Shown here: positions 32,849-63,462 of the stretch, piece after piece
Numbering within the stretch: the first letter of the stretch is position 1
Layout: the number at the start of each line of letters is the position of its first letter
NCBI GenBank assembly: GCA_004212075.1
Contig: RXIF01000012.1
Coordinates: 1-64,000 of the forward strand
Direction of reading: 5' to 3'
Length of the DNA: 64,000 bases
Origin: Candidatus Methanoliparum thermophilum
GTDB lineage: Archaea > Halobacteriota > Methanoliparia > Methanoliparales > Methanoliparaceae
Translations under genes and position numbers: made by a program
Notes under the pieces: generated by a model
The model's database searches: none
The model's input: only the letters and a program-made list of their open reading frames with translations
What the model was told of the DNA's origin: nothing

Positions 32849-32912
32849 CCGTGCCTCAGGTACAACACCTTCATCATTAAAATCAGACTGCCCATCATTC
32901 ATCATCGGCCGG
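32849..32912 (-). ncRNA. C/D box sRNA 1 (2'-O-methylation guide), downstream of tRNA-Pro
   Basis: Reading the minus strand: stem CCGGCC, box C ATGATGA (32905-32899), 12-nt guide ATGATGGGCAGT, box D' CTGA (32886-32883), spacer TTTTA, box C' ATGATGA (32877-32871), 11-nt guide AGGTGTTGTAC, box D CTGA (32859-32856), stem GGCACGG. All four boxes are perfect and the stems pair as CCG-GCC with GGC-A-CGG. The layout is that of archaeal dual-guide C/D sRNAs, which direct fibrillarin, Nop5 and L7Ae. It begins 10 bases after the 3' end of tRNA-Pro on the same strand, so co-transcription is likely. Its rRNA or tRNA targets were not identified. Confidence 0.85.
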
Positions 32913-32922
32913 GTTTTTTTGA

Positions 32923-32997
32923 TGGGGTCGCTGAGATTTGAACTCAGGTTTCCAGCGCCCCATGCTGGGAGGATAGTCCAGGCTACCTTACGACCCC
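32923..32997 (-). tRNA. tRNA-Pro (anticodon GGG)
   Basis: The cloverleaf closes fully: acceptor GGGGTCG/CGACCCC, anticodon stem CCAGC/GCTGG around loop ATGGGGC (anticodon GGG), T-stem CTGAG/CTCAG with loop TTCAAAT, discriminator A, no encoded CCA. The D-arm has an A10-U25 pair and a U13-U22 mismatch, as is common for archaeal tRNA-Pro. A C/D box sRNA follows 10 bases downstream. Confidence 0.95.
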
Positions 32998-52410: not shown

Positions 52411-52478
52411 AGATGCCTCAGAACTCATAGGGTTCATCATTTTTTTAAATCAGGTTTTTAATTCATCATCGGCTATCT
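52411..52478 (-). ncRNA. C/D box sRNA 2, predicted guide for Cm34 of elongator tRNA-Met
   Basis: On the minus strand: stem AGATAGCC, box C ATGATGA (52469-52463), guide ATTAAAAAC (9 nt), box D' CTGA (52453-52450), spacer, box C' ATGATGA (52440-52434), guide ACCCTATGAGTT (52433-52422), box D CTGA (52421-52418), stem GGCATCT. The ends pair as AGAT-A-GCC with GGC-ATCT. The D guide pairs with GACTCATAGGGT in the intron-containing tRNA-Met precursor (63421-63432, minus strand): 11 Watson-Crick pairs plus one U-G. The nucleotide opposite the fifth guide position upstream of box D is C34, known to be 2'-O-methylated in archaeal elongator tRNA-Met. Box C overlaps the pyrF stop codon. Confidence 0.9.
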
Positions 52479-53110
52479 TGTAATATCTCATTTCTTATAC
52501 GTTTCGCAGCCTCTATTGGGTTTTTTGCTGTATAAATACTCCTGCCCACTATTAAATAATCAGCCCCGGCAGAGAGTGCCTCACGTATCGATCCTCCTTG
52601 AGCACCAACACCCGGACAGATCATCCTCAGATTTTTTACATATCTTCTGATTATTTTTAATCTTTCAGGATCGTTTGCAGGAGCAACCACACCTGTTACT
52701 TTATATTTTACTGCCATTTTACAAAGATTTTTAGTATTCGGTCGGATAAACTCGTCTGCGCCCGGATTGCTCATATCTACTACAACGTATATCTCTCCAT
52801 CGTATTCTTTTGCAGTCTCTATACAAGCTTTTAAAGAGTAAGATCCTGTAAACCCATGTGATATAACGGCTTTGGCACCATTCTCAAAAGCTATTCTACA
52901 TATCATCTCGTTAGTATAAGGAATATCGGCAACTTTTAAGTCTGCGATCACTGGAGAGTATCTTGAAAGATCGCCTATTATACCGATACCTGCAGATAAG
53001 ATCAGGGGATAGCCTACTTTTACATAATCTATAAACTCGCTTATATCTTTTAACAGATTTAATGATCTATACTTATCTGTAAGATCCATTGCAAATATTA
53101 AACCGCTCAT
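52466..53110 (-). CDS. pyrF: Orotidine 5'-phosphate decarboxylase (PyrF)
   Basis: PyrF makes UMP from OMP. The 214-aa TIM-barrel protein has FAMDLTDKY, the catalytic ADLKVADIPYTN (Asp-x-Lys-x-x-Asp) and CPGVGAQGGSIREALSAGADYLIVGRSIY. The ATG overlaps the deoxyhypusine synthase stop by 4 bases. The TGA stop lies inside box C of the C/D sRNA that begins here, so the sRNA could be processed from the pyrF mRNA. Confidence 0.97.
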   Translation of the reverse strand: MSGLIFAMDLTDKYRSLNLLKDISEFIDYVKVGYPLILSAGIGIIGDLSRYSPVIADLKVADIPYTNEMICRIAFENGAKAVISHGFTGSYSLKACIETAKEYDGEIYVVVDMSNPGADEFIRPNTKNLCKMAVKYKVTGVVAPANDPERLKIIRRYVKNLRMICPGVGAQGGSIREALSAGADYLIVGRSIYTAKNPIEAAKRIRNEILQDSR

Positions 53111-63350: not shown

Positions 63351-63462
63351 TGCCGGGGGCGGGATTCGAGCCCGCGACCTTCAGATTGCCCAGGCGTCTT
63401 TTTAATCATTTATCAGATTCACCCTATGAGTCTGACGCCCTAACCAGCTAGGCCACCCCGGC
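63351..63462 (-). tRNA. tRNA-Met, elongator (anticodon CAT) with a 38-nt intron
   Basis: Exon 1 is 63462-63425, intron 63424-63387, exon 2 63386-63351. The mature 74-nt tRNA has acceptor GCCGGGG/CCCCGGC, anticodon stem TCAGA/TCTGA, loop CTCATAA (anticodon CAT), T-stem GCGGG/CCCGC and discriminator A. The intron interrupts after position 37, the usual archaeal site for splicing endonuclease. The G1-C72 pair and lack of initiator features point to elongator tRNA. Its anticodon region and first intron bases match the guide of the C/D sRNA at 52411-52478. Confidence 0.95.
63387..63424 (-). other. Intron of tRNA-Met
   Basis: The 38-nt intron begins GGGTGAATCTG and lies after anticodon-loop position 37. 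Its first four bases (GGGT) form part of the predicted pairing with the sRNA guide, so methylation by that guide would have to precede splicing. Confidence 0.85.

Follow-up and report, generated by a model that had tools for sequence, protein, structure and literature searches.

A box C/D sRNA gene of Candidatus Methanoliparum thermophilum that very probably guides Cm34 on the intron-containing pre-tRNA-Met before splicing

Box C/D sRNAs that guide Cm34 on tRNA-Met are already known, and so is the idea that they act before splicing (Rfam, PMC2584109). A review (PMC4033218) ascribes Cm34 in haloarchaeal elongator tRNA-Met to an sR-tMet-type guide, citing Joardar et al. 2011. According to the 2008 RNomics study of Haloferax volcanii (PMC2584109), the guide for Cm34 of the intron-containing tRNA-Met is an sRNA encoded outside the intron. 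Part of the intron pairs with the guide there, and methylation must therefore precede splicing. The same study gives 18 Cm34 guide candidates and makes a comparison with Pyrococcus sR49. The C/D guide of tRNA-Trp (Cm34/Um39) likewise acts on a pre-tRNA before splicing, but in that case the intron itself serves as the guide, whereas the tRNA-Met guide is a separate gene.

We analyzed a 64,000-nucleotide stretch of Candidatus Methanoliparum thermophilum (contig RXIF01000012.1, positions 1 to 64,000), here called the window. It contains a box C/D sRNA gene. Since both the guide type and the pre-splicing idea are known, this sRNA is a new member, a newly seen but ordinary representative of the sR-tMet/sR41 guide type that is conserved across many archaea. 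We put at about 93% the probability that the locus is a box C/D sRNA guiding Cm34 on the elongator pre-tRNA-Met before intron removal. An initial annotation had placed a C/D sRNA within 52411-52478. A complete C/D architecture was found there on the minus strand. The boxes were placed from the sequence and the D' guide from an alignment of relatives.

52415-52473, minus strand: box C/D sRNA gene, sR-tMet/sR41-like, with terminal stem GCC...GGC included and complete boxes C, D', C' and D
52463-52469, minus strand: box C, ATGATGA, with the pyrF stop codon TGA (52466-52468) inside it
52454-52462, minus strand: D' guide or spacer ATTAAAAAC, 9 nt
52450-52453, minus strand: box D', CTGA
52434-52440, minus strand: box C', ATGATGA
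52422-52433, minus strand: D guide ACCCTATGAGTT, 12 nt, with the conserved core CCCTATGAGT at positions 2-11
52418-52421, minus strand: box D, CTGA
52466-53110, minus strand: pyrF, orotidine-5'-phosphate decarboxylase (NF010386, 274.4 bits, cut-off 208)

From box C to box D the sRNA spans 52418-52469 on the minus strand. Read from 52473 to 52415, it is GCC-G-ATGATGA-ATTAAAAAC-CTGA-TTTAAAAAA-ATGATGA-ACCCTATGAGTT-CTGA-GGC, where TTTAAAAAA is the 9-nt linker from box D' to box C'. It has the RUGAUGA boxes C and C' and the CUGA boxes D and D' of archaeal C/D sRNAs in the correct order. Boxes C and D are joined by the short terminal stem, 3 bp of GCC/GGC (52471-52473 and 52415-52417), which is retained in most relatives. 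The guide before box D falls within the usual 10-12 nt; it is 12 nt and fully paired to its target. The D' guide is almost entirely A/T, is not conserved and probably has no target.

The strict C/D pattern matched twice in the window and not once in 60 order-2 Markov randomized windows. On both strands of the 64 kb, tRNA-Met is the guide's only mismatch-free partner, its own complement aside. These two results argue that the match between guide and target is not due to chance. The motif RACTCATAGGG has three copies in the 1.26-Mb genome. Two are the tRNA and the complement of the guide itself; the third lies elsewhere on the same contig in apparent coding DNA. The intergenic DNA is AT-rich and the D' guide nearly all A/T, as might be expected if the sRNA and its match were chance resemblances. 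That explanation is so improbable that it can be set aside: the randomized windows gave no strict match, and homologues that share the core, from dozens of genera, already refute it.

The window also contains a second C/D sRNA at 32856-32905 on the minus strand (ATGATGA-ATGGGCAGT-CTGA-...-ATGATGA-AGGTGTTGTAC-CTGA). Its best Rfam match is sR1, at 34.4 bits. It lies closely downstream of tRNA-Pro(GGG) at 32923-32997, and the two possibly form a dicistronic tRNA-sRNA.

The target of the guide is an elongator-type tRNA-Met, identified with Rfam RF00005 (58.5 bits) and by parsing the pairing of its arms. ARAGORN, run on the window, did not report a tRNA-Met at 63351-63462.

63351-63462, minus strand: pre-tRNA-Met (CAU), elongator type, intron-containing
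63425-63462, minus strand: exon 1 of tRNA-Met
63387-63424, minus strand: intron of tRNA-Met, 38 nt, at canonical position 37/38
63352-63386, minus strand: exon 2 of tRNA-Met
63421-63432, minus strand: guide target GACTCATAGGGT, G30-A37 plus the first four intron bases
63428, minus strand: C34, the predicted 2'-O-methylation site

The initial annotation had proposed that the D guide pairs with the pre-tRNA-Met at 63421-63432, across the exon-intron junction, and sets methylation on C34. We reproduced this pairing in full. ACCCTATGAGTT and GACTCATAGGGT form 11 Watson-Crick pairs and one U-G, the U-G adjoining box D, and A37 and the first four intron bases are all paired. Within this duplex the guide core CCCUAUGAG pairs with CUCAUA and the intron GGG, as in sR-tMet and sR41. 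The fifth guide base before CTGA is a G opposite C34 (63428), which is the methylation site predicted by the D+5 rule (PMC7994747). The match links two features 11 kb apart, as the initial annotation had pointed out; the spacing itself has no evident meaning. This tRNA-Met has a T loop that begins with C54 (GGGCTCGAAT) and not the usual T54, a feature common to relatives of the same family and to genome G047. A possible degenerate C/D motif in the intron (CTGATAAATGATTA) was treated as chance because it is missing from the introns of the same family.

Among described guides, the sRNA is closest to sR41 (RF01126, Pyrococcus type) and haloarchaeal sR-tMet (RF02163). In sR41 the consensus GCCCUAUGAGcg stands directly before box D in the same compact layout, but the two guide bases beside box D are cg and not the TT of the window copy. 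The haloarchaeal sR-tMet has the same core (CCCUAUGAGU) and a 12-nt D spacer, with the consensus GCCCUAUGAGUG preceding a CCGA box. PMC4033218 gives it the same target, C34 of the intron-containing elongator pre-tRNA-Met. It differs in its TGACGA and CCGA boxes and its longer C'/D' region, where the window copy has canonical ATGATGA and CTGA. The PMC2584109 candidates are, like this sRNA, predicted, encoded outside the intron and partly intron-pairing. Against Rfam models drawn from narrow lineages, the window sRNA scored 47.3 bits with sR41 (E 1.8e-10), below the gathering score of 54, and 26.1 bits with sR-tMet, below the gathering score of 50. A gathering score is a database cut-off and not a functional feature, so these values lower only the claim of belonging to the Rfam entries as drawn. 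A haloarchaeal relative reached 80.5 bits with sR-tMet and passes the gathering score.

The gene immediately upstream of the sRNA is pyrF, whose 3' end overlaps it. Among 152 distinct homologous loci, 79 have the C-terminal signature of pyrF just upstream, and box C often contains the pyrF stop codon. This adjacency was found in Methanosarcinales, Methanoperedens, Methanomicrobiales and the window's own family; it was not seen in the Thermoplasmata or haloarchaea among these loci. The arrangement suggests processing from the pyrF transcript, and the sRNA is probably cut from it. Precedents exist for C/D sRNAs that lie close to the end of a protein gene or overlap it (PMC7994747). Our literature search found no paper on a pair of pyrF and a guide sRNA, and the arrangement may be new.

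To assess conservation, we surveyed 295 genomes from the phylum, whose family and genus labels are anonymous, scanned named genomes, and searched with a covariance model of our own. Some searches demanded the core; the covariance model recovered it in families where the pattern searches had come up empty. The core CCCTATGAGT is present in Methanosarcinales, Candidatus Methanoperedens, Methanothrix, Thermoplasmata and Methanomicrobiales, and also in haloarchaea, with boxes TGACGA and CCGA. In copies with a 12-nt spacer, the ten bases of CCCTATGAGT are kept, and position 1 (beside box D) and position 12 vary freely. Yang et al. reportedly put at about ten, in 2016, the number of guide-target pairs used by archaeal C/D RNPs, and the ten-base core agrees with this. 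Six loci (L145, L153, L185, L187, L193 and L195), from Thermoplasmata and unclassified Euryarchaeota, share a second guide of about AGAGGGTCAG before box D'.

In the proposed mechanism, the sRNA would be bound by L7Ae, Nop5 and fibrillarin. The D guide would anneal to the intron-containing precursor across the 5' splice site and place C34 opposite the D+5 nucleotide, and fibrillarin would make Cm34 before the intron is removed. We infer that the sRNA is expressed, that methylation takes place and that splicing follows it. The initial annotation had held that modification must come before splicing. Duplex energies are predicted at -19.3 kcal/mol for the precursor and -8.7 kcal/mol for the mature (spliced) tRNA-Met, a difference that argues strongly for that order and stops short of "must." The 3' part of these introns carries TGAG or TGGG, able to pair with C32-A35. 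Because that pairing occupies bases the guide would also cover, guide binding and the splicing motif should, to judge from the sequences, exclude each other. Such exclusion would enforce methylation first and splicing second.

We also considered that the sRNA acts on mature tRNA-Met as well, so that the order would not be enforced. Eight pairs would remain there (seven Watson-Crick and one U-G). The drop in duplex energy makes this unlikely, and so does the CCC with which the guide pairs to the intron. It is as conserved as the rest of the guide, loci found with the profile included. The absence of the guide from all 19 intronless genomes also speaks against action on the mature tRNA.

Methylation of the precursor before splicing is the reading we prefer, and the initial annotation had proposed checking whether guide and intron co-vary in related genomes. 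It had named relatives with a changed intron start and an unchanged guide as evidence against the pairing. We parsed tRNA-Met genes from relatives and compared the intron start with the presence of the guide core CCCTATGAGT. Of the 68 genomes with a tRNA-Met intron beginning in GGG, 61, from 22 families, carry the core. It was present in 0 of 25 genomes lacking that start (19 intronless, 6 with another intron start). No relative among those parsed combined a changed intron start with an unchanged guide. The Fisher p is about 1e-16 by genome and 6e-7 by anonymous family, both too optimistic because relatives are phylogenetically non-independent. The intronless genomes belong to families f5, f6 and f12 and to genus g65 of f14. 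Family f14 provides the best single contrast: genus g21 has intron and guide, and genus g65 is intronless with no guide found. Seven genomes have a GGG intron with no guide detected: five in g37, one in g13, and one that is 61% complete. The splicing helix or motif may be a further reason for keeping GGG at the intron start, and intron conservation alone is ambiguous; the CCC in the guide is therefore the cleaner evidence.

One C/D sRNA (L120, genome G031) has a changed core, CGCCGTATGAGTG, and the tRNA-Met intron of that genome starts with AGACAG. The changed core does not match its own intron, with which only eight pairs are possible. Several other matches were rejected. One, to CCCTATGAGT, comes from the intronless genome G057, where the surrounding DNA lacks a second box pair. 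Another, in G282 of family f5, has no proper boxes, and the tRNA-Met of that genome was not recovered. In genus g37 and in f5 genomes, what the profile picked up were other C/D sRNAs, whose guides differ.

Copies from Methanomicrobiales depart from this layout. Where other copies have one base between the core and box D, these have two, three or four, giving 13-15-nt D spacers (L128, L144, L149, L163, L198, L242, L244-L258 and others). The shift is real, because the terminal stem fixes box D. It puts D+5 on U33, C32 or A31 instead of C34. In the three-base cases the added bases rarely lengthen the pairing (position 2 matches A29 in 1 of 36), and the intron-pairing CCC is retained. As a tentative explanation, to which we assign well below even odds, either the guide was re-aimed from C34 to a neighboring base, mostly C32, or the RNP of this lineage departs from the D+5 rule by looping out the extra bases. 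The rarely pairing extra bases and the kept CCC slightly favor looping out. The shift may be new.

Retention of the core in Methanomicrobiales with D+5 off C34 is also what might be expected of a real sRNA whose main role is that of an antisense or chaperone. Such an sRNA would keep the 5' splice site open and time splicing, with methylation secondary. The pairing does extend over the splice junction, and the C32-A35 helix of the splicing motif would have to compete with it. We regard this role as very unlikely to be the main one. The 12-nt spacer sets D+5 exactly on C34 here and in most relatives, and PMC4033218 attributes Cm34 of haloarchaeal elongator tRNA-Met to such a guide.

The shift of box D offers a natural variant in which the D+5 rule can be tested directly, and several Methanomicrobiales genera have cultured species. 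At the scale of the phylum, a separate guide RNA is tied to a tRNA intron, and the guide is absent where the intron is missing or starts differently. This tie provides a concrete reason why the tRNA-Met intron may persist.
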